A stretch of DNA of 64,000 nucleotides. It comes from a bacterium (lineage in GTDB: Bacteria; Electryoneota; RPQS01). Positions within the stretch are counted from its first letter, which is position 1, and each line of letters opens with the position of its first letter. A program made the translations under genes and the position numbers. Below, one piece after another: positions 6,851 through 24,507 of this stretch. The notes beneath the pieces are model-generated. The model searched no databases and was not told the DNA's origin. It saw only the letters and a list, made by a program, of their open reading frames with translations. The stretch covers positions 1 to 64,000 of the forward strand of contig JABWCQ010000001.1 in NCBI GenBank assembly GCA_013360195.1, written 5' to 3'.

Positions 6851-6900
6851 TTGCATCGCCCCATCACCTCGAAACCTAACCGGATTTGTTCGTACCGACC

Positions 6901-8904
6901 ATGTCAGAAGCATTAGACAGACTTAGCATAAACACCGTGCGCGGATTAGCCATTGATGCCGTACAGGCGGCCAATTCCGGTCATCCCGGGCTGCCTCTAG
7001 GCGCGGCGGTGATGGGATACACGATATTTCAGAGGCACCTTCGCCACAATCCGTTGGATCCTGCGTGGGTCAATCGCGATCGCTTCGTGCTTTCCGCAGG
7101 ACACGGCTGTGCGCTGTTATACTCACTGCTTCACCTGACCGGATATGACTTACCACTTGAGCAACTGAAGAAGTTCAGACAGTGGGGAAGCATCACACCC
7201 GGGCATCCCGAATTAGGCTTGACTCCGGGTGTGGAAGCCACCACCGGACCGTTGGGACAGGGAGTAGGCAACATTGTCGGTATCGCCATTGCGAGGAATA
7301 TACTCGCCTCGATGTTCAACCGGTATGGACACGAAGTGATAAACTTCCGCGTATTCGGCATCTGTTCGGATGGAGACCTGATGGAAGGTGTAAGCGCGGA
7401 AGCGGCGTCACTGGCAGGTCATCTGGGGCTCGGATCCATTGTGATGCTGTATGACGACAACCACATTACTATTGACGGTTCAACCGAAATTGCCTTTACC
7501 GAAGACGTCGGTGCGAGGTTTGAGAGTTACGGATGGCAGGTGCTGGCATGTGATGGCATGGACGCTGCGGAAGTTGATCAGGCCATTCGCGAAGGAATCG
7601 CAGAAACGGAAAGACCAACACTCATCCGTTGCAGGACTCAAATCGGATACGGTTCGCCCAATCGTGCCGGAACCTCCAAAGTGCACGGAGCGCCGCTTGG
7701 AGAGGATGAGCTCATATTGACGAAGAAGTCGCTGGGATTGCCGGAAAATGAAAAGTTCTACGTATCGTCCGAGGTTTTCAAGCACATGGGCGCAGCGCGG
7801 CAAACTGGTGCGGAACGGCAGGCGGCCTGGCAGAGTTTATTAGAAAAGTCCTTCGCATCGCACCCCGGTTTGCAGCATGAATGGCAAACGTTCTGGTCGC
7901 GCCGATTGCCGGAACACTGGGCGGATGCATTGCCCAAATGGAAGACGTCTGACAAGCCCATCGCTACCCGCAAGGCATCGGAGTTGTGTTTACACGCGCT
8001 GAAAGATCTGCCGTGGCTCGTGGGCGGGAGTGCGGATTTAGTCGAATCTAATCTGACGTATCTGGAAGGACGAGGAGATTTCCAAAAGGATACGCACCAC
8101 GGACGAAACATCCGCTTCGGAATCAGAGAGCACGGAATGGGTGCGATACTTAACGGCATCGCAAGCAGCGGCCCGTTCATGGCATTCGGTGCGACGTTCA
8201 TGACATTCCTGGACTACATGAAACCGTCGGTTCGCATTGCGGCGCTTTCACACCTGCCTGTTTGTTACATTTACACACACGACAGCATAGGATTGGGTGA
8301 AGACGGTCCGACGCATCAGCCGATCGAACAGTTAACCCACATGCGGGCGACTCCGAATCTGTGGACGATGCGTCCTGCCGATGCCAATGAAACGGCCGAG
8401 TGTTACCGGGTTGCTCTGGAGCGGACGGACGGGCCGGTCGCGCTATGTCTGACTCGTCAGGCGCTTCCGGTGCTTGATTACGCCGGAGAGAGAATGCCGG
8501 TCGAGCTCGGGGCGTACATCATTGCGGACGCGGATAACGGACGCCCCGATGTCATTCTTCTCGCGAGCGGAAGCGAAGTGGAGATTGCTGTCAGTGCTCG
8601 TGCGTTGCTCGCAAAGGAAGGAGTAACAGCACGTGTCGTGTCGGTTCCATGTCAGGAATTGTTCGACAAGCAGCCGTTGGCCTATCGCGAACAGGTCTTG
8701 CCGCCTGACATTCGCGCGCGAGTTGCAATTGAAGCGGGAGCTACGCAGGGATGGTGGAAGTATGTCGGGCTTGACGGCGATGTCGTCGGATTAGACAGGT
8801 TCGGTGCGTCTGCTCCTGCGAAAACTTTGTACGAGAAGTTCGGGCTTACTGCCGAAAATGTGACGGCACGGGCACTGACGGTGCTTTCAAAAGCAGGGAG
8901 ATAG
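6901..8904 (+). CDS. tkt: Transketolase
   Basis: Thiamine-diphosphate enzyme that transfers two-carbon ketol units between pentose, tetrose and hexose phosphates in the non-oxidative pentose phosphate pathway; cytoplasmic. The 667-residue length is typical of full-length bacterial transketolase. N-terminal ThDP-binding landmarks are [14 protein letters not shown] near residue 25, GPLGQGVGN near 117 and GDGDLMEG-like CSDGDLMEG near 155. The pyrimidine domain has IREHGMG and the conserved [17 protein letters not shown] chose ATG 6901 (MSEALDRLS); an in-frame TTG at 6886 would add five residues without a better ribosome site. The stop is followed after 1 nt by rpiB, so the two are co-transcribed with tal downstream. 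Confidence 0.96.
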
Positions 8905-9382: not shown

Positions 9383-10483
9383 ATGAGCCATCCGATCATG
9401 AAAGCCACGCTTGACCTCGGTCAGTCGCTTTGGCTGGATTATATCAGCCGCGAGTTAATGGATTCAGGCGGGCTGGAACGGCATGTCGCGGAAGGATTGC
9501 GAGGCATGACCTCAAATCCGTCCATATTCGAGAAGGCAATTGCTTCAAGTTCAGATTACGACGACGACATCCGTAAAGGGGCTGCCGCAGGACTTGGTGC
9601 GCATGAGGTTTTCGAAAATCTAGCCGTTGCCGATGTGTCACGCGCGTGCGGCATGCTCGTTAACGTTTACCGGGACTCGGAAGGTGTGGACGGTTATGTC
9701 AGTCTCGAAGTATCGCCGAAGCTCGCACACGATACGCAAGGAACAATAGACGAAGCGCTGCGTCTCTGGCAGCGAGTCAACCGTCCTAATCTCATGATCA
9801 AAGTGCCGGGAACTCCCGAAGGACTTCCGGCCGTGCTTGAACTTCTGACTCGCGGTGTGAATGTCAACATCACTCTTCTATTCACGCTCGATCAATACCG
9901 CCAAGTTCTGGAGACCTACTTAAGGGCGCTCGAGGAACGGCATGCGAAGGGGGAAGATCTGTCCCGGATAGCGTCTGTAGCAAGCTTCTTTGTGAGCCGG
10001 ATTGACTCAGTCGCAGATGCACAACTTGAGAAGATTGGTCGGAAGGATTTGCTTGCAAAAGGCGCGATCGCTAACGCTTGTCTTGCCTATAAGCACTTCC
10101 TCGATGTTACCGCGTCTGCAAGATGGCAGAAGCTCGCAAAGGCGGGTGCACAGGTGCAGCGGCCGCTTTGGGCGTCCACGTCCACAAAGAATCCTGAGTA
10201 TTCGGATGTGCTCTATGTTGAGGAACTAATCGCCGCAAACACGGTCAATACGGTCCCGCCGCAGACGCTTTCGGCTTTCAAGGATCATGGCAAGCCGTCC
10301 GCAAGGCTAATGATGAATATGGCCAAAGCGTCCGAGACAATCGCAGAAATGAGAAAGTTGGGAGTGGACATTGACAAAATCGCCTTTGATCTCATCGAAG
10401 ACGGAGTCGTGAAGTTCGCGCAGTCCTTTGATGCGATGCTCGCGGCGATTGACTCAAAGCTTAAAGCCCCGATGGCTGTATAA
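9383..10483 (+). CDS. tal: Transaldolase (long form)
   Basis: Transfers dihydroxyacetone units from sedoheptulose 7-phosphate to glyceraldehyde 3-phosphate through a Schiff base. At 366 residues it matches the longer transaldolase subfamily seen in actinobacteria, cyanobacteria and others, rather than the ~220-residue FSA-like type. Landmarks are the N-terminal SLWLDYISRELM and GMTSNPSIFEKA, the active-site lysine segment NLMIKVPGTPEG and VNITLLF. A clear AGGAG precedes the ATG (TTAGGAGATACAAT). It closes the tkt-rpiB-tal unit and is followed by a strong hairpin. Confidence 0.95.
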   Translation: MSHPIMKATLDLGQSLWLDYISRELMDSGGLERHVAEGLRGMTSNPSIFEKAIASSSDYDDDIRKGAAAGLGAHEVFENLAVADVSRACGMLVNVYRDSEGVDGYVSLEVSPKLAHDTQGTIDEALRLWQRVNRPNLMIKVPGTPEGLPAVLELLTRGVNVNITLLFTLDQYRQVLETYLRALEERHAKGEDLSRIASVASFFVSRIDSVADAQLEKIGRKDLLAKGAIANACLAYKHFLDVTASARWQKLAKAGAQVQRPLWASTSTKNPEYSDVLYVEELIAANTVNTVPPQTLSAFKDHGKPSARLMMNMAKASETIAEMRKLGVDIDKIAFDLIEDGVVKFAQSFDAMLAAIDSKLKAPMAV

Positions 10484-15608: not shown

Positions 15609-15640
15609 AAGTCCACTTTACGTGCGAATTGAATTCTCTT

Positions 15641-16567
15641 ATGTCCCATTCCCCGAAGAACCGTTTTACGGAACAGCCCGAACTTCAGTCACAGGCAAGT
15701 ACAGGTCACCTCTTTCAGCCCGCGCCGAGCAGCTCTTTCTCGTACCATCGTGTCCTTCGACGAGTGCATGATGCTGACACTGTTGTCGGTGTGCGAGGAG
15801 TCGCGGTCGGTGGACAAGAGCTTACTGTGATCGCAGGTCCGTGCGCAGTCGAATCACCGCAACAACTGATGGCAGCCGCCGAACAGGCTGCTGCGAGTGG
15901 CGCACATCTGCTTCGCGGCGGAGCCTTCAAGCTGCGAACTTCTCCGTACGCATTCTCCGGACTCGGAGAAGCGGGGCTAAGACTGCTAAGCGAGGCTCGC
16001 CGCGTTTCAGGACTACCCGTGGTTACGGAAGTCGTGGACGAGGAGAGCGTCTTGCTCGCGGCAGCACATGCCGACATGCTCCAGATCGGCACGAGAAACA
16101 TGCACAACTATGTGTTGCTGAAGCAAGCGGCGTCCACAGGCAAACCAGTGCTGCTCAAGCGGGGTATGGCTGCAACGCTCGATGAGTTTCTGCATGCCGC
16201 CGAATACATTCTTGCGGCTGGGAATTCGCAAGTTGTGTTGTGTGAACGAGGTATCCGCACGTTTTCTGATTTCACCCGTAACACTCTCGACCTGAATATC
16301 GTTCCGGCACTCAAACAGCTTACGCACCTACCTGTAATTACCGACCCCTCGCATGGAACCGGCAGACGTGACTTGGTTCCGGCGATGGCGCGCGCATCCA
16401 TTGCCGCTGGTGCAGACGGTGTTTTGATCGAAATGCATCCCGATCCAGAGCGTGCTCTTTCAGACGGCTATCAATCCCTTGATCCAATCGAATTCAAGGA
16501 AATGGTCACGGACCTTGCGCGTATTGCGCCGATTGTCGGGCGAACGCTGACTTTGCGTGGACAGTAA
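15641..16567 (+). CDS. aroF: DAHP synthase (3-deoxy-7-phosphoheptulonate synthase), class I-beta
   Basis: First step of the shikimate pathway: condenses phosphoenolpyruvate with erythrose 4-phosphate. The 308-residue protein has the catalytic barrel from about residue 55 on, with IAGPCAVES, LRGGAFKLRTSPYAF, IGTRNMHN, LLKRGMAAT, CERGIRTF and DPSHGTGRRDL, all diagnostic of the AroF/KdsA-like I-beta group. The first ~35 residues are Ser/Gln/Pro-rich. The ferredoxin-like regulatory domain of the Thermotoga-type enzyme appears to be missing, and there is no chorismate mutase fusion, so feedback control through those domains is not expected. I chose ATG 15641; TTG 15629 is an in-frame alternative. 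The symbol follows common usage for this family. Confidence 0.92.
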   Translation: MSHSPKNRFTEQPELQSQASTGHLFQPAPSSSFSYHRVLRRVHDADTVVGVRGVAVGGQELTVIAGPCAVESPQQLMAAAEQAAASGAHLLRGGAFKLRTSPYAFSGLGEAGLRLLSEARRVSGLPVVTEVVDEESVLLAAAHADMLQIGTRNMHNYVLLKQAASTGKPVLLKRGMAATLDEFLHAAEYILAAGNSQVVLCERGIRTFSDFTRNTLDLNIVPALKQLTHLPVITDPSHGTGRRDLVPAMARASIAAGADGVLIEMHPDPERALSDGYQSLDPIEFKEMVTDLARIAPIVGRTLTLRGQ

Positions 16568-17861
16568 GGAGTTTTCCGTTCGGATTTCCCCCGCTTCAGA
16601 GCCGATCAGGGGTGAAGTAAGGATATCCGGTGATAAATCCGTTTCGATCCGACGCGCACTCTTTAGTCTGCTTGGTTCGCAAACCGTGTCCTTGAAAAAC
16701 TATGGCACCGGACACGATTGTTTGACAGCCCTTTCATGTTTGCGAACGCTCGGCATTCCGGTCTTGTCTGATGGCCGCAATGTTGTTATCCACCGAGGCA
16801 CTGTTCAATCCGGTGTGACATTGGATTGTCAAAACTCCGGCACCACCGCAAGATTGCTCGTGGGAATGCTCGCCGGTCGCGAGGGGAATTGGACATTAGT
16901 CGGCGATGAGTCATTGTCAAAACGACCTATGCGCCGCGTGGCCGTTCCGCTTTCCAGAATGGGCGCAGAAATCGAACTCAGCGAATCGGGCTGCCTACCG
17001 GCAAAAATTGTCGGGCAAAAGCTCCGAGGAACAGAAGTTGACCTGAATATCGCGAGCGCGCAAATCAAAAGCGCGCTCTTGCTTGCTGGGCTGTCCGCGT
17101 CCGGAGTCACACGTATACGCGAACCGTTCAATTCAAGGGATCATACAGAGCGGCTGCTCGGGCTCCGGCAAGACGAAGACAGGTTTTGGACAGTGAGCAG
17201 GCAAACTCTGCTCTCGAAACCGCTCGATTTGAGCGGGGAAGTGCCCGGTGACATTTCCAGCGCGGCATTCTGGGTCGTTGCGGCACTGCTTGTCCCGCAA
17301 TCTGAGTTGACCATCGGAAATGTGCTGCTCAATCCGCTCCGTGCGCGATGGTTTGAATGTCTCCGCCGTTCAGGCGCTGATATCTCCGCTGCTGTTGAAG
17401 GAAATGTATGCGGTGAACCGGTTGGAAGAATCACTGCTCGCTATTCGCGAATGATGCCGCTCAAGGTCACCGCGGACGAGGTCCCGGGATTGATTGACGA
17501 GATTCCTGCCCTCGCCGTTCTCGCGGCAACGATTGAAGGTCGATCGGAGTTCTACAATATTGGCGAACTTCGCGTAAAGGAAAGCGACCGGCTGCAGGCC
17601 GTTGCGTCTGGACTGGAAACGATGGGAGTTTCGGTTGAGATTAATGGTGATGATTTGTTCGTCAATGGTGGTTCACCGTTGCGCGGTGGAGTAATCGATC
17701 CGGCTGGCGACCATCGAATCGCGATGGCTTTCTCACTCGCCGCACTCACAGCTCGAAGCCAAACTGACATCTTGAACGCATCGTGCGCGGCCGTTTCTTA
17801 CCCTGAGTTCTATGATGAACTCGCAAAGCTTTCCCCTGACGCCGGAATACAAAAATACTAA
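16557..17861 (+). CDS. aroA: 5-enolpyruvylshikimate-3-phosphate synthase
   Basis: Sixth step of the pathway: transfers enolpyruvyl from PEP to shikimate 3-phosphate. The 434 residues are typical. Landmarks are GDKSVSIRRALF (substrate lysine), NSGTTARLLVGMLAG, SKRPMRRV, the RVKESDRL motif and DHRIAMAF. The only possible start is GTG 16557, because a stop codon lies three codons upstream in frame; it overlaps the end of the DAHP synthase gene by 11 nt. The AAGGAG that follows the start cannot serve it, so translation is probably coupled. Confidence 0.95.
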   Translation: MDSKEFSVRISPASEPIRGEVRISGDKSVSIRRALFSLLGSQTVSLKNYGTGHDCLTALSCLRTLGIPVLSDGRNVVIHRGTVQSGVTLDCQNSGTTARLLVGMLAGREGNWTLVGDESLSKRPMRRVAVPLSRMGAEIELSESGCLPAKIVGQKLRGTEVDLNIASAQIKSALLLAGLSASGVTRIREPFNSRDHTERLLGLRQDEDRFWTVSRQTLLSKPLDLSGEVPGDISSAAFWVVAALLVPQSELTIGNVLLNPLRARWFECLRRSGADISAAVEGNVCGEPVGRITARYSRMMPLKVTADEVPGLIDEIPALAVLAATIEGRSEFYNIGELRVKESDRLQAVASGLETMGVSVEINGDDLFVNGGSPLRGGVIDPAGDHRIAMAFSLAALTARSQTDILNASCAAVSYPEFYDELAKLSPDAGIQKY

Positions 17862-18701
17862 ATGGCATTTAGATTCGGACTAATCGGCGAGCACATCTCG
17901 TCCAGCCTCTCACCCGTCCTGTTCTCGTGGGCGTTTCAGAATACGGGTCTTTCGGGGTCGTATACTCTTTACGACTTCCCCCGCAGATTGGCCCGGTCGT
18001 TCCTGTTGCAGGCACGAATTAGCTGGGACGGGATGAACGTAACGGCGCCGCACAAGGATCTTGCGTTTTCGTTGTGTGATGAGTTGACCGACAGTGCTCT
18101 CAGTGTGCAGGCCGTGAATACGCTGGTCAGAAAGCAAGGCAAGCTGGTCGGCCACAACACGGACGTCGCTGGTTTCCGTTATGCGCTTGAACAGAAACTC
18201 GAAATTGCGTCGCGTGCGGAACGTGTGCTGATTATCGGGACAGGCGGCGCCGCTCGCGCCACCATGCTTGCCGTGGCGCAGCTTCTGACTCCGACCGAGA
18301 TCGCCATTGCTTCACGCCGCCCCGCTGACGCAGCCGACAGAGTGTCTTCTGTCCTGCCTGCGCCCTATGCGCCCGTGATGCTAACGCATACAAAAGCGCG
18401 CAAACGATTGCATGAATTTGATATTGTGGTTCAGGCGACTCCTGTCGGCCATCTGTCCAGTCCAGGTTTCCCGCTCGATCCGCCATTTGCCTTCAAACCC
18501 GGTGCGCTTGTCTATGACTTGATATACTCACCGCGTAAAACACTGTTTCTCGAATCGGCACAGTCATTCGGCGCTGTCACGGAAAACGGTTTGGTCATGC
18601 TGCTTGCCCAAGCTGCCGAAAGTTTTCAGATTTGGACAGGTAAACCCTTTCCTCTGGAACATGCCGTACGCGAGCTCTTGCCGGAGTTGCGAAACTCGTG
18701 A
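17862..18701 (+). CDS. aroE: Shikimate 5-dehydrogenase
   Basis: NADPH-dependent reduction of 3-dehydroshikimate to shikimate. The 279 residues fit AroE. Substrate-binding SSLSPVLFS, the catalytic Lys/Asp pair in NVTAPHKDLA and GHNTDVAGF, and the Rossmann motif GTGGAARAT are all visible. The ATG abuts the aroA stop with no gap, indicating coupling within the operon. The arrangement gives no hint of quinate specificity. Confidence 0.95.
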   Translation: MAFRFGLIGEHISSSLSPVLFSWAFQNTGLSGSYTLYDFPRRLARSFLLQARISWDGMNVTAPHKDLAFSLCDELTDSALSVQAVNTLVRKQGKLVGHNTDVAGFRYALEQKLEIASRAERVLIIGTGGAARATMLAVAQLLTPTEIAIASRRPADAADRVSSVLPAPYAPVMLTHTKARKRLHEFDIVVQATPVGHLSSPGFPLDPPFAFKPGALVYDLIYSPRKTLFLESAQSFGAVTENGLVMLLAQAAESFQIWTGKPFPLEHAVRELLPELRNS

Positions 18702-19861
18702 TCCGCTTCCTGACAGCTGGAGAAAGCCACGGTCCCGGGCTAACCGGAATCCTGGAAGGCATGCCGGCTGGTTTGGCCGTCTCGGAAGCGGATATCGCCC
18801 ATGACTTGGCACGGCGGCAAAAAGGCCACGGGCGCGGCGGTCGCATGAAGATTGAATCAGACTATGCTCGGATTACCAGCGGCGTTCGCTACGGATTGAC
18901 TCTTGGTTCGCCGATTGCTCTCTTTATCGAAAACAAGGATTGGGAGAACTGGCGCGATAAGATGTCACTTGAAGATCCCGGTGCGCACAAGCGAACAGAG
19001 AAACTCACTAGTCCGCGGCCCGGACATGCCGACTACGCCGGCTCTGTCAAATACCATCAAGACGATATTCGAAATATCATCGAACGTTCGTCTGCTCGTG
19101 AGACGACAATGCGGGTTGCTCTGGCGGCGATTTGCCGCAAATTCTTTGCTGAATTCGGAATCCGCGTTATCAGTCATGTCGTCAACATCGGCGGTGTGCA
19201 GGCAAAACCAGTTGATTCGGACATCCCGCTTCAACAGCTCGCGGCAATTGTCGAAGCGAGCCCCGTGCGCTGCGCAGATGCGGACGTTGAGGACAAGATG
19301 GTGCGGCTGATTGATGATGCGGTTGTGAGGAAGGATACTGTCGGCGGTGTCTTCGAAGTCATCGTTGACGGTTTGCCGACAGGTCTCGGCAGTTTCGTTC
19401 ATTACGACCGTCGGCTCGACGGAATCCTTGCACAAGCGATGATGTCCATACACGCCATGAAGGGCGTTGAATTCGGAATGGGTTTCGAGGTCGCAAATGT
19501 CCCTGGCAGCGCCGTTCATGATCGGATGTATCCACATGATAAGGGCGTCATTCGCAAGTCAAATGCCGCAGGCGGCACGGAAGGTGGAATGACCAACGGA
19601 GAACGGCTCGTGATTCGCGTGGCCATGAAACCGCTATCCTCACTCATGCAACCGCTCGAATCCGTCAATCTTAAGACAGGCGAGCCTGTCGAAGCCCTGC
19701 GGGAACGGAGTGACGTTTGCGCTGTGCCTGCAGGGGGCATTGTCGGCGAAGCCATGGCCTTGCTCGCGCTGATGAATCCGTTTCTCGAGAAGTTCGGCGG
19801 CGATTCCATTACCGAGATTCGCGCCCATGTAAACGCAACTCCCCGCTCACCATGGCAATAG
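18698..19861 (+). CDS. aroC: Chorismate synthase
   Basis: Last step of the pathway: FMN-dependent trans-elimination of phosphate from EPSP to give chorismate. The 387 residues match the long bacterial form. Landmarks are GESHGPGLTG at the N terminus, RRQKGHGRGGRMKIE, SPRPGHADYAG, RSSARETTMR and GGTEGGMTNGE. The start is GTG 18698, overlapping the aroE stop by 4 nt (GTGA). Confidence 0.96.
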   Translation: MIRFLTAGESHGPGLTGILEGMPAGLAVSEADIAHDLARRQKGHGRGGRMKIESDYARITSGVRYGLTLGSPIALFIENKDWENWRDKMSLEDPGAHKRTEKLTSPRPGHADYAGSVKYHQDDIRNIIERSSARETTMRVALAAICRKFFAEFGIRVISHVVNIGGVQAKPVDSDIPLQQLAAIVEASPVRCADADVEDKMVRLIDDAVVRKDTVGGVFEVIVDGLPTGLGSFVHYDRRLDGILAQAMMSIHAMKGVEFGMGFEVANVPGSAVHDRMYPHDKGVIRKSNAAGGTEGGMTNGERLVIRVAMKPLSSLMQPLESVNLKTGEPVEALRERSDVCAVPAGGIVGEAMALLALMNPFLEKFGGDSITEIRAHVNATPRSPWQ

Positions 19862-20373
19862 TCTACCTTTGCGGGTTGCCTGGATCCGGCAAGAGCACAA
19901 TCGGACCACTGCTTGCGGAATTGCGCGGTCAACCATTTGTCGATTTGGATTCTATGATTGAAGCTCGCGCCGGGATGGAAATTCCGGCGATTTTTCGCTC
20001 TATGGGAGAGCCTGCCTTTCGTGATTTTGAGAACCTGGCGCTTGTGCAAGCCGCAAGTCGCGGCGATAGTGTCATTGCGCTCGGTGGTGGTGCATTGGAA
20101 CGCGAAGACAATCGCGCCATCGTTATGGCAAGCGGGCTGCTGGTTCAGCTTGATGCGCCTTTGTCTGTCTTAGCGGCGCGCACCATGAAGAGTACCGGCC
20201 GGCCGCTTCTCGATGGCGCCGAGACGATGGCTGAACGAATTCTTGCGCTGCAAGCTTTGGCAGAACAGCGAAAAGAGCAATTCGAACTTGCCGCCTTGAC
20301 GTTTCCGACTGCAAATGAAGATCCGAAGCAAACCGCACTGATGATTTTCGAGGCGATTGATGGACTCGTTTGA
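19852..20373 (+). CDS. aroK: Shikimate kinase
   Basis: Phosphorylates shikimate at O3 with ATP. The 173-residue protein begins MAIVYLCGLPGSGKSTIG, whose GxxGSGKST is the Walker A loop; DLDSMIE and FRDFEN bind shikimate; ALGGGALE and the lid region TGRPLL follow. I set the start at ATG 19852, giving a 10-nt overlap with aroC. A frame-open extension further upstream lies wholly inside aroC and has no kinase-like sequence. Confidence 0.94.
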   Translation: MAIVYLCGLPGSGKSTIGPLLAELRGQPFVDLDSMIEARAGMEIPAIFRSMGEPAFRDFENLALVQAASRGDSVIALGGGALEREDNRAIVMASGLLVQLDAPLSVLAARTMKSTGRPLLDGAETMAERILALQALAEQRKEQFELAALTFPTANEDPKQTALMIFEAIDGLV

Positions 20374-21925
20374 ACTGCGCACAAATAGCGGTATCATACC
20401 CGTTCGGTTTGCACGGGCAAACTTCGAGTGGATTTCCGCCGAAATGTCCCGCTGGCTGGGCATACGCAGACCTCGGGTATTCATCGTCACGGACGAGAAT
20501 GTTGCGCTTCATCATCTCGAATACCTGAAGGCTGCCTTGGTGGCAGAGGGATACGAATTTGACTCTTTTGTGCTTCCGCCCGGTGAGGATCAGAAGAACT
20601 TGAGTAGAGTCAAGTCGCTGCTCGACATATTGATACAAAAGAACTATGCCCGTGACGACCTGATTCTTGCATTTGGCGGGGGAGTCGTCACAGATGTCGC
20701 TGGATTTGTTGCAAGCATATTCAAACGCGGAATTGAGTGGATTGCCGTTCCGACTACGGTTCTGGCTATGGTGGATGCCGCAATCGGCGGCAAGACTGGC
20801 ATCAATCACGAGCTTGGCAAGAATCTTATCGGCACATTTCATCAGCCGAGACTCGTGCTTGCAGAACTTTCGATTCTCCGAACACTCCCCGCGCGCGAAA
20901 CTCGCTCAGGTGCGGCTGAAATTGTCAAAGGAGCATTGCTTTGCGGCGGCGAATTCTGGCGGGAAATTGAATCCGCCGGAATGGACGCGACGTGCTGGCA
21001 GCCGCGCCAGCTCGAAAGATTGATTTCACGGGGTGCAGCCGCAAAAATTGACATTGTCTCCCGCGATGAACGCGAAAGCGGAGAGCGGGTGCTGCTGAAT
21101 CTTGGTCACACCTTCGGCCACGCACTGGAACAGGCAACGGGCTACGGTAAACTTACTCACGGTGAAGCTGTCTTCTACGGTCTGCGTGCATCCATATTCC
21201 TCTCTGAGAGCTGTGGAATGATGACGCAACCGTTAGCCCGCAAACTTGAGTCGCAGATTGGCACTCTTTCACTTCCCGGTGCAAAGTGCTCTCCGCAAGA
21301 TCTTCTGTCTGCAATGAAGTCGGACAAAAAAACTGCGTCGGGGAAGCTGCGCTGGATTCTCCTGCGCGAGCCCGGCAAGCCTGTTGTCAGTCATGATGTT
21401 CCGGAGTCTGTCGTCCAGGAATGCGCGAATTGGCTTTCAGAGACTGTCTCAAATGGAACGGCATCTGCATCCCTTCCTCGCCGCCGCAGGATTGTTATCC
21501 TTAATGGTCCGAATCTAAACTTGCTTGGTTCACGTGAACCTGCAGTTTACGGGACGATGTCCTATGACGACCTCTGCAAGCAGTGTGCGGAGTGGGCGGA
21601 AGACCTGAATTTAGACCTTGTTATTCGGCAAAGCAATCTTGAAGGCGAGTTTGCCGAATTGGTGCAATGGACACGAGGGTGGGCGGACGGACTTGTCCTC
21701 AATCCCGGTGCCTTCACTCATACGTCCGTCGCCGTTCGCGATGCTTTGGCCGCTGCCAATCTGCCCTCCATCGAAGTCCATCTTTCATCCCCCGCCGCGC
21801 GCGAAGACTTTCGCCATCGTTCACTCATCCAGGACCTTTGCCGCAAATCCTTTTCCGGGCTTGGACCTGAGGGCTACCGTCTCGCCATGCAAGAACTTGC
21901 CTTCTGCCTGCCGGAAACCCTCTAG
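20360..21925 (+). CDS. aroB-aroQ: Fused 3-dehydroquinate synthase / type II 3-dehydroquinate dehydratase
   Basis: One 521-residue polypeptide carries pathway steps two and three. Residues 1 to about 345 are AroB: NAD-binding GGGVVTDVAGFVAS, GGKTGINHELGKNLIG, and zinc ligands in AEIVKGALL, NLGHTFGHALE and LTHGEAVFYG. After a roughly 30-residue linker (about 345-377, ending RRRR), residues 378-521 are a complete type II dehydratase: ILNGPNLNLLG, the catalytic Tyr in EPAVYG, VIRQSNLEGE, VLNPGAFTHTS and EVHLSSP. There is no stop or frameshift between the domains. The start ATG 20360 overlaps aroK by 14 nt; TTG 20357 would add one Met. The fusion could channel dehydroquinate, but that is inference. 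Confidence 0.94.
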   Translation: MDSFELRTNSGIIPVRFARANFEWISAEMSRWLGIRRPRVFIVTDENVALHHLEYLKAALVAEGYEFDSFVLPPGEDQKNLSRVKSLLDILIQKNYARDDLILAFGGGVVTDVAGFVASIFKRGIEWIAVPTTVLAMVDAAIGGKTGINHELGKNLIGTFHQPRLVLAELSILRTLPARETRSGAAEIVKGALLCGGEFWREIESAGMDATCWQPRQLERLISRGAAAKIDIVSRDERESGERVLLNLGHTFGHALEQATGYGKLTHGEAVFYGLRASIFLSESCGMMTQPLARKLESQIGTLSLPGAKCSPQDLLSAMKSDKKTASGKLRWILLREPGKPVVSHDVPESVVQECANWLSETVSNGTASASLPRRRRIVILNGPNLNLLGSREPAVYGTMSYDDLCKQCAEWAEDLNLDLVIRQSNLEGEFAELVQWTRGWADGLVLNPGAFTHTSVAVRDALAAANLPSIEVHLSSPAAREDFRHRSLIQDLCRKSFSGLGPEGYRLAMQELAFCLPETL

Positions 21926-22108: not shown

Positions 22109-23098
22109 ATGAGTCGCGAAATTCACAACGTTGTTATTGTCGGCTCCGGCCCTGCCGGACTCACCGCGGCGATTTATGCTGGCCGGGCTAACCTGAATCC
22201 TGTGGTTATTGACGGTATTCAACCCGGAGGCCAGCTCATGATTACCAGCGACGTCGAAAATTATCCCGGTTTTCCTGATGGAATCGAGGGACCAGCCTTG
22301 ATGGAGCTCATGCGCCGTCAGGCCGAGCGCTTTGGTACCCGCTATGTTGAAGACGAAGCCATCTCAATCGAGGTAACTTCGCGCCCGTTCAAAGTAAACC
22401 TCGGCTATCTGGAGCCGCTCTACAGCCACTCTGTGATTGTAGCTTCAGGAGCCTCGGCCAAGTGGCTGGGTCTCGAAAGTGAAAAAAGACTGCAAGGCAA
22501 AGGTGTTTCAGCGTGCGCGACCTGCGATGGTTTCTTCTTTCGCGGAAAAGTCGTTGCGGTAGTCGGCGGCGGAGATACGGCCATGGAGGAAGCGTCCTAC
22601 CTGACGCGCCATGCGTCGAAAGTCTATCTCATACACCGGCGCGATTCATTCAGGGCCTCGAAAATCATGCAAGACCGCGTGCTCACCAACGAAAAAATTG
22701 AAGTGATATACAATTCAGGAGTCACTGAAGTTCTGAGCGATGCCGCCGAAACGCATGTTAATGGTCTTAAGCTCAAGAATTTCGTTACCGGTCAGGAGAG
22801 CGTGTTGCCTGTGGACGGCTTCTTTGTGGCCATCGGACACGAACCGAACACAAAAATCATCCGCGATATCCTTAAGACAGACGAAAACGGCTATGTCCTC
22901 CATCATCCAGACTCGTCATGGACAGATATCGAAGGACTGTTTGTTGCGGGCGATGTTCACGACCACCATTACCGGCAGGCGGTAACCGCGGCCGGAGCCG
23001 GTTGTATGGCTGCCATCGATGCCGAACGCTGGCTCGAAAGCGAAGCCCACAGCGGCAGGCTGAAAGCCGCTGAAGAGAACTTTCTCGCAACCGCCTAA
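22109..23098 (+). CDS. trxB: Thioredoxin reductase
   Basis: Flavoenzyme that reduces thioredoxin with NADPH. The 329 residues fit the low-molecular-weight type. FAD-binding GSGPAGLTAAIYAGRA is at the N terminus, the redox pair is CATC (Cys136, Cys139) in CATCDGFF, the NADPH site is VVGGGDTAMEEASYL followed by HRRDSFRASKIM, and the second FAD motif is GLFVAGDVHDHHYRQAVTAAGAG. It is followed after 5 nt by lpdA. The 183-bp gap before it shows no obvious terminator for the shikimate operon. Confidence 0.95.
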   Translation: MSREIHNVVIVGSGPAGLTAAIYAGRANLNPVVIDGIQPGGQLMITSDVENYPGFPDGIEGPALMELMRRQAERFGTRYVEDEAISIEVTSRPFKVNLGYLEPLYSHSVIVASGASAKWLGLESEKRLQGKGVSACATCDGFFFRGKVVAVVGGGDTAMEEASYLTRHASKVYLIHRRDSFRASKIMQDRVLTNEKIEVIYNSGVTEVLSDAAETHVNGLKLKNFVTGQESVLPVDGFFVAIGHEPNTKIIRDILKTDENGYVLHHPDSSWTDIEGLFVAGDVHDHHYRQAVTAAGAGCMAAIDAERWLESEAHSGRLKAAEENFLATA

Positions 23099-23103
23099 GC
23101 ATC

Positions 23104-24507
23104 ATGTCAACTTCTGAATTTGATATTGTCGTGCTTGGCGGTGGTCCCGGCGGATACGTCGCCGCCATTCGCGCTGCCCAATTGGGGCTGAAGACCTGTG
23201 TCGTGGATGAACAGCCGCTCGGCGGAGTGTGCGTCAATTGGGGATGTATTCCCTCCAAGGCGTTGCTCAAAGCGGCCGAGTTGTATCAGGACATCCAGCA
23301 TGTCGCCCCGCAAATGGGCATCAAGGCTAAAACCGACGGCTTCGATTGGTCACGTATCATCCAGCGCTCTCGTGAAGTTTCAGAAAAGAATTCATCAGGC
23401 GTGGAATTCCTTGTCCGAAAAAGCAAGATTCACCGCCCGGTCGGACGCTTCCGCATTGTTGGTGACCACGAAATCGAAGTCCACGAAAAAGGCAATCCGG
23501 CCAAAGTCATTGACAAGATTCGCGGCAAGCACATGATTATCGCTACGGGAAGTGTCAATCGTACTTTGCCGGGTGTTACGGTGGATCGCAAGCGCATCAT
23601 CACCTACATGGAGGCAATGTCGCTTGAAAAGCAGCCGAAATCCCTGGTGATTGTCGGTGCAGGTGCGATTGGGTGCGAGTTTGCGTATTTTTACCGAGCG
23701 CTTGGAACAGACGTTACTCTGGTGGAAGTGCAGAACCGCATCCTGCCCCTCGAAGACGGCGAGTCGAGCAAGTTCGTTGAAGCTGCATTCAAAAAGATTG
23801 GCATGAATGTTTTAACGAATACTCGCGTCAGCTCCATCGTTGCCACGAATGGCGGCGTTTCTGTGCAGATCGAAGGGCAGGACAAACCGATGAGTGCTGA
23901 CCACTGTCTTGTGGCCATCGGATTCGCGGCGAATGTTGAAGGCTGGGGATTTGAGAAGACCGGTGTTGCGCTCGAAAAAGGATTTATCAAAGTTGACAGC
24001 TTTTTCAAAACCAACAAGCCCGGTTACTATGCAATCGGCGACGTCATTGGAGCTCCGCAGCTTGCGCATACTGCGTCGCATGAAGGCATTGTTTGTGTCG
24101 ATGCGATTGCCGGTAAGCATCCGCATCCGATTGATTACACCAACAACCCCGCCTGTACCTACTGCCAGCCGCAAGTCGCGAGTGTGGGATACACTGAAGA
24201 GAAATGCAAAGAACTCGGGCTTGAGTACAAAGTAGGTCGGTTCCCCTTTAGCGCGTCCGGCAAGGCTCGCGCCATCGGTCACACCGAAGGACACGTCAAG
24301 CTGATTTTCGAAAAGAAATACGGCCAACTGCTCGGTGCGCATATTGTCGGTTCCGAGGCGACCGAGATGATTGCTCAGCTTGCTCTTGCCAGAGTGCTTG
24401 AAGCCACCCCGGAAACGATATACAATACCGTTCACGCACATCCGACGCTGACGGAAGCGGTCATGGAGGCCGCACTTGCCGCCGACGGTCGCGCAGTCCA
24501 TATGTAG
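23104..24507 (+). CDS. lpdA: Dihydrolipoamide dehydrogenase
   Basis: E3 subunit of 2-oxoacid dehydrogenase or glycine-cleavage complexes; reoxidises dihydrolipoyl groups with NAD. The 467 residues have N-terminal GGGPGGYVAAIRAAQLG, the redox disulphide in GGVCVNWGCIPSKALL (Cys43, Cys48), NAD-binding VGAGAIGCEFAYFY, and the C-terminal catalytic HAHPTLTEAVMEAAL. No E1 or E2 gene is adjacent, so its partner complex cannot be told from this window. Its pairing with trxB suggests a shared redox-related transcript. Confidence 0.94.
   Translation: MSTSEFDIVVLGGGPGGYVAAIRAAQLGLKTCVVDEQPLGGVCVNWGCIPSKALLKAAELYQDIQHVAPQMGIKAKTDGFDWSRIIQRSREVSEKNSSGVEFLVRKSKIHRPVGRFRIVGDHEIEVHEKGNPAKVIDKIRGKHMIIATGSVNRTLPGVTVDRKRIITYMEAMSLEKQPKSLVIVGAGAIGCEFAYFYRALGTDVTLVEVQNRILPLEDGESSKFVEAAFKKIGMNVLTNTRVSSIVATNGGVSVQIEGQDKPMSADHCLVAIGFAANVEGWGFEKTGVALEKGFIKVDSFFKTNKPGYYAIGDVIGAPQLAHTASHEGIVCVDAIAGKHPHPIDYTNNPACTYCQPQVASVGYTEEKCKELGLEYKVGRFPFSASGKARAIGHTEGHVKLIFEKKYGQLLGAHIVGSEATEMIAQLALARVLEATPETIYNTVHAHPTLTEAVMEAALAADGRAVHM

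Follow-up and report, generated by a model that had tools for sequence, protein, structure and literature searches.

An in-frame fusion of dehydroquinate synthase and type II dehydroquinate dehydratase at the end of an aro gene cluster in one bacterial order of Electryoneota

The DNA analysed is a 64,000-nucleotide stretch of an Electryoneota genome (contig JABWCQ010000001.1, positions 1 to 64,000; hereafter the window). It carries a + strand aro cluster in which seven shikimate steps are distributed over six genes (Table 1). The genes overlap or abut, and the cluster is probably co-transcribed as one operon; promoter and terminator scans at this site gave results near chance level. The last gene, here called aroBQ, is a single open frame of 521 codons encoding dehydroquinate synthase (DHQS, AroB) followed by a type II dehydroquinate dehydratase (DHQase, AroQ). 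Its ATG is preceded by GAGG and overlaps the aroK stop by 14 nt, and its own stop lies at 21923-21925.

Table 1. Features of the aro cluster and of the fusion gene in the window
Feature	Position	Strand	Evidence
DAHP synthase, step 1, first gene of the putative operon	15629..16567	+	PF00793 (E 9.3e-75), synteny
aroA, EPSP synthase, step 6	16557..17861	+	PF00275, synteny
aroE, shikimate dehydrogenase, step 4	17862..18701	+	PF08501/PF18317, synteny
aroC, chorismate synthase, step 7	18698..19861	+	PF01264
aroK, shikimate kinase, step 5	19852..20373	+	PF01202, synteny
aroBQ fusion gene	20360..21925	+	open frame, Pfam, orthologues
AroB part (DHQ_synthase + DHQS_C), residues 70-325	20567..21334	+	Pfam, alignments
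C-terminal AroB helix and linker, residues 349-375	21404..21484	+	alignments, start codon scan, model
AroQ part (DHquinase_II), residues 377-513	21488..21898	+	Pfam, alignments, PMC10772564, PMC6011038

Two further gene pairs flank the cluster. Transketolase and transaldolase genes (6886-8904 and 9383-10483) lie on the same strand 5-9 kb upstream, and could be a source of erythrose 4-phosphate for step 1; a transaldolase gene is found upstream of the aro operon in two relatives as well. Directly after aroBQ come a thioredoxin reductase-like gene (22109-23098) and a lipoamide dehydrogenase-like gene (23104-24507), a pair kept in those genomes of family f1 whose contigs extend there.

Pfam matches to DHQ_synthase (residues 70-182, E 1.2e-45), DHQS_C (residues 184-325, E 1.6e-36) and DHquinase_II (E 4.3e-49) were all far over their cut-offs. 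The first part also matched the AroB equivalog TIGR01357 over its full length (NCBIfam; 338.9 bits against a cut-off of 305), and the second part matched PF01220 at full length (166.2 bits, positions 1-137 of 138) and scored above or near the cut-offs of the NCBIfam type II DHQase models. Among solved structures, the closest to the first part were stand-alone DHQ synthases, and those closest to the second were stand-alone type II DHQases. The open frame and the Pfam and NCBIfam matches bore out the coordinates and domain calls of the original prediction, which had been made from the letters of the window. A scan of the window detected no in-frame ATG, GTG or TTG in the 45 codons upstream of the GPNLN motif, so AroQ is not separately translatable there, and an internal start was ruled out in the window. 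Among the linkers of relatives, ATG occurs only in L005, and GTG or TTG in some.

The catalytic residues of both enzymes are retained. Using a numbering in which the window residue equals the C. glutamicum number + 373, AroQ residues N385, R392, Y397, N448, H454, D461, E472, H474, R481 and R485 correspond to the C. glutamicum DHQD catalytic set (N12, R19, Y24, N75, H81, D88, E99, H101, R108 and R112), which is invariant and ungapped in all 12 fused proteins found in the order. Together with the full-length PF01220 match, these residues confirmed the prediction that the dehydratase is of type II. In AroB, E187, K190, R243, N247, H250, H254 and H267 are invariant in the 12 genomes, and the zinc-ligand and substrate motifs E..K, R...N..H...H, HGEA and DKK are invariant or nearly so in the 12 fused proteins; we presume these residue roles from the known spacing of DHQS motifs. 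Judged from sequence, both domains should be active. One AroQ position departs from the usual pattern: the Asn of HLSN (C. glutamicum 104; residue 477, window 21788-21790), which adjoins the substrate-binding Ser103 (C. glutamicum numbering), is Asp in 11 of the 12 fused proteins and in both proteins of a neighbouring family, f4, and residue 477 of the window protein is Ser.

To place the fusion in its lineage, we compared 13 genomes of the order, in two families (f1 and f2). The same uninterrupted fusion, of similar length, was present in 12/12 genomes having both enzymes, with 46-58% identity to the window protein among fused relatives; the thirteenth (G012, 88% complete) is without AroB, AroQ and chorismate synthase. 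The last conserved AroB Leu is separated from GPNLN by 24 residues in nine of the genomes and by 25 in the other three, and the linker sequence varies freely apart from one invariant Gly (G366). The in-frame fusion proposed for the window is therefore one uninterrupted frame there and in 11 further assemblies. The stretch at 21390-21490, where the original prediction had allowed that a sequencing error might have removed a stop codon, is open in those 11 independent assemblies, excluding this error. The aro gene order is kept around the fusion in relatives as far as contigs extend; no DAHP synthase match was found beside aroA in G002. In each of the 12 genomes the fusion is itself the sole AroB and the sole type II DHQase, with no second AroB or second DHQase in any of them, and no type I DHQase (PF01487) was found in the phylum's 39 genomes, controls having matched as expected. 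Hence, if the pathway works, the fusion must perform both steps.

We searched a sample of 386 bacterial genomes, 302 of which gave a match. Among the matches listed, a stop-free match across both domains occurred only in the order's 12 genomes and in none of the 373 others, within a search reach that could miss very divergent AroB-AroQ fusions. Spanning matches in G245, G110, G380, G053, G082, G068 and G022 contained internal stops and represent neighbour genes in one frame; the long AroQ frames in G255, G323, G085 and G384 had out-of-frame extensions and were likewise rejected. No AroB-AroQ fusion was found in the small phyla around G110, G245 and G053. A profile search of a separate collection with the family alignment returned 80 named loci, 0 of them fused, and a scan of the same contig collection with the single window protein gave no match. 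Both genes lay within the fetched stretch in 49/80 of these loci, many adjacent, the adjacent split pairs including Chloroflexota, Actinomycetota and Fidelibacterota loci. Bacteria often carry aroB and aroQ side by side as separate genes, so little change to an ordinary gene order is needed to produce the fusion. Open-access literature yielded no report of an AroB-type II AroQ fusion. A bacterial fusion of this kind had been predicted to be rare, and the search for two-domain proteins agreed: it is fixed in one order and absent from the 373 genomes and 80 loci sampled, and neither there nor in the open-access literature did we find an identical fusion. Present in all enzyme-bearing genomes of the order and in none of the 373 others sampled, the AroB-AroQ fusion is real and lineage-specific.

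The origin of the fusion was addressed with quick trees of each domain, in which support is SH-aLRT only. The 12 fused proteins formed one clade in both trees (support 98 for AroB, 86 for AroQ), and f4, the closest family beyond the order, was its sister, the two joining with support 93 (AroB) and 86 (AroQ). The f4 genomes have the same aro order (G014; G019 within contig reach), but with aroB and aroQ separate, overlapping by ATGA in G014. As both trees place the fused clade beside f4, the fusion appears to have arisen once from neighbours; the simplest history would be a single event in the order's ancestor, from a split operon as the ancestral state. A pair in another family, f7, considered as the source of the fusion, was supported by neither domain tree; in the f7 genome G022, aroB and aroQ share one frame but are separated by two TAA.

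The f4 genomes contain fusions of their own. Their AroQ is fused C-terminally to a 4HBT (hotdog) thioesterase (L102:2472-3350 in G014, L103:2472-3359 in G019), and the AroB of G014 carries a fused shikimate kinase-like stretch at its N-terminus. The same operon has thus given different fusions in neighbouring families. Elsewhere in the phylum, aroB and aroQ are adjacent or nearly so in seven genomes of f7 and f8 (G017, G022, G025, G028, G031, G034 and G021), in none of which chorismate synthase was detected, so that the pair may serve a purpose other than chorismate there. In G017 its neighbours include a phosphoglycerate mutase-like gene, a zinc alcohol dehydrogenase and a B12-radical SAM protein. 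Neither AroB, AroQ nor type I DHQase was found in f3, f5 and f6 (17 genomes, mostly >85% complete), and among these a chorismate synthase was found in G036 only. These absences suggest aromatic amino acid auxotrophy across large parts of the phylum.

Taken together, these observations lead us to propose, with a probability of about 0.88, that AroBQ is a bifunctional shikimate enzyme. Made from the last gene of the seven-step aro operon, it would be the sole enzyme that the cell has for steps 2 and 3, its N-terminal AroB converting DAHP to 3-dehydroquinate and its C-terminal type II AroQ converting 3-dehydroquinate to 3-dehydroshikimate. It would have formed once, in the order's ancestor, through loss of the boundary between two adjoining operon genes, which overlap in the sister family. 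The likely benefit would not be a closed tunnel but a fixed 1:1 supply of the two activities and a locally raised dehydroquinate concentration, and the gain from proximity would be modest. AroQ trimers and AroB dimers would probably be its building blocks, and the AroQ dodecamer seen in other type II enzymes may not form.

An unlikely but credible competitor is a neutral fusion through stop loss or a small indel, giving fixed stoichiometry only and no kinetic benefit. Adjacent aroB-aroQ pairs being common, the ATGA overlap in G014 and the single frame with two TAA in G022 speak for such an origin; however, no reversal was seen in 12/12 deeply diverged genomes, and the length of the linker has stayed constant.

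True channelling, in which the two active sites are opposed and AroQ receives dehydroquinate directly from AroB, is improbable. The two steps are consecutive and on one chain, the linker length is constant, and an engineered DHD-SDH fusion lowered DHS accumulation, an effect ascribed to proximity (PMC10305709). However, an AlphaFold2 model of moderate quality (mean pLDDT 81.6, pTM 0.66), built from the window protein aligned with free AroB and free AroQ sequences, had two confident cores; a helix spanning model residues 348-363 was followed by a linker of low confidence, which is probably flexible, and the linker and part of AroB fell at <50 pLDDT. In a Foldseek search with this model DHQS structures ranked first, and the AROM complex aligned over 477 columns with an rmsd of 14; neither model nor search supported a fixed domain arrangement. 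No conserved inter-domain surface was identified, and the published description of Candida Aro1 is of a flexible dimer whose domains are relatively autonomous (PMC9074039).

That a missed stop or frameshift merely joins two genes can be dismissed: although the window genome is a 46-contig assembly and aroB and aroQ are adjacent yet split elsewhere in the phylum, the independent genomes refute this reading, since the open frame recurs in 11 other assemblies (46-58% identity) with a linker constant within one residue, and the window keeps no start codon ahead of AroQ.

In AroQ, four trimers form a tetrahedral dodecamer with 23 symmetry (PMC7144000, PMC10772564). The essential Asp88 is supplied by the neighbouring subunit, and the smallest unit capable of catalysis is a trimer (PMC6011038). 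DHQS, by contrast, occurs as an obligate dimer (PMC6851490). In the C. glutamicum dodecamer, the strand V124-I125-A126 is part of the trimer-joining contact (PMC10772564). When the 12 fused AroQs were compared with 52 free ones at each alignment column (C. glutamicum numbering), the greatest difference lay at position 123, which is Gly in 50/52 free proteins, 1/12 fused and 0/2 from f4. The other 11 fused proteins have Ala, Arg, Lys, Asp or Glu there (Lys in the window), L004 alone keeping Gly, and both f4 proteins have Ala. Position 128 is Phe or Leu in 49/52 free proteins and charged or polar in 11/12 fused, the window protein having Leu. Both positions flank the inter-trimer strand 124-126. 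All fused proteins retain a hydrophobic residue in column 125 as well as the trimer residue D88, and by sequence the AroQ trimer looks intact. All solved AroQs compared have Gly at 123; one, 6hs8, has Gln at 128. With Gln128 in 6hs8, Leu128 in the window and Gly123 in L004, the interface argument is suggestive only. Our hypothesis from these columns is that the inter-trimer contact is remodelled or lost in the fused AroQs. Since f4 shares the altered columns, this change would predate the fusion; since f4 lacks a fusion to AroB, the change may also have another cause.

The original prediction held that joining a dodecamer to a dimer poses an assembly problem. The mismatch itself stands, on published work, but with the dodecamer interface apparently altered and the trimer apparently intact the problem may already be partly solved. 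We tentatively suggest that the common ancestor of the order and f4 lost the AroQ dodecamer contact, so that AroQ could be fused N-terminally to AroB in the order and C-terminally to the hotdog thioesterase in f4, and that AroBQ forms a new trimer/dimer particle, for example a D3 hexamer. It would then be a naturally non-dodecameric type II DHQase coupled to the enzyme that acts just before it. A more doubtful arrangement keeps the normal AroQ dodecamer, with AroB dimers on its six two-fold edges in a closed tetrahedral 12-mer of ~680 kDa and the strand-side change tolerated. The 23 symmetry of the dodecamer (PMC7144000, PMC10772564) includes two-fold axes that could seat a C2 AroB dimer, so the native symmetries would be compatible, and column 125 remains hydrophobic throughout; against this, the near-invariant Gly 123 is lost and position 128 is polar in the fused clade.

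AroBQ can be compared with several known systems. As in fungal AROM/Aro1, DHQ synthase shares its chain with the next-step enzyme. In AROM, however, the DHQase is of type I and three other enzymes are present (order DHQS-EPSPS-SK-DHQD-SD), whereas AroBQ joins DHQS directly to the unrelated type II DHQase, which needs at least a trimer. AroBQ is not AROM-type: it has two domains only, and EPSPS, SK and SD are separate genes. The predicted contrast with AROM thus held, the fusion being two-domain and type II in a genome without PF01487. AroK-AroB fusions (NCBIfam PRK14021, PRK13951), a type also present in the sister-family genome G014, are bacterial two-enzyme shikimate fusions including AroB, but with an N-terminal shikimate kinase (step 5, non-consecutive) as partner. 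Plant DHQD-SDH (AroDE) also places two consecutive steps on one chain, and its active sites face each other (PMC10305709), but the steps are 3 and 4 and the DHQase is type I. Free type II DHQases (C. glutamicum, M. tuberculosis, H. pylori) belong to the same family as the AroQ part and share its catalytic residues, including the neighbour-subunit Asp88 (PMC6011038, PMC10772564). They are dodecamers in which a Gly next to the inter-trimer strand is conserved, whereas nearly all fused AroQs are without that Gly and carry AroB at the N-terminus. The direct joining of DHQS to a type II DHQase is found in none of AROM, AroK-AroB and plant DHQD-SDH; AroBQ is a modest variation on known pathway fusions.

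One phylum thus spans a series from separate neighbouring operon genes to a fixed two-enzyme fusion. AroBQ provides a character by which the order can be marked and, for engineering of the shikimate pathway, a natural template, and it raises the testable question of whether joining steps 2 and 3 increases flux without a tunnel. The trimer and dodecamer contacts of type II DHQase clash with a dimeric AroB partner, which raises a second testable question, whether the high-order oligomer was lost before the genes fused. This possible loss of dodecamerisation ahead of fusion is the most interesting part of the finding.
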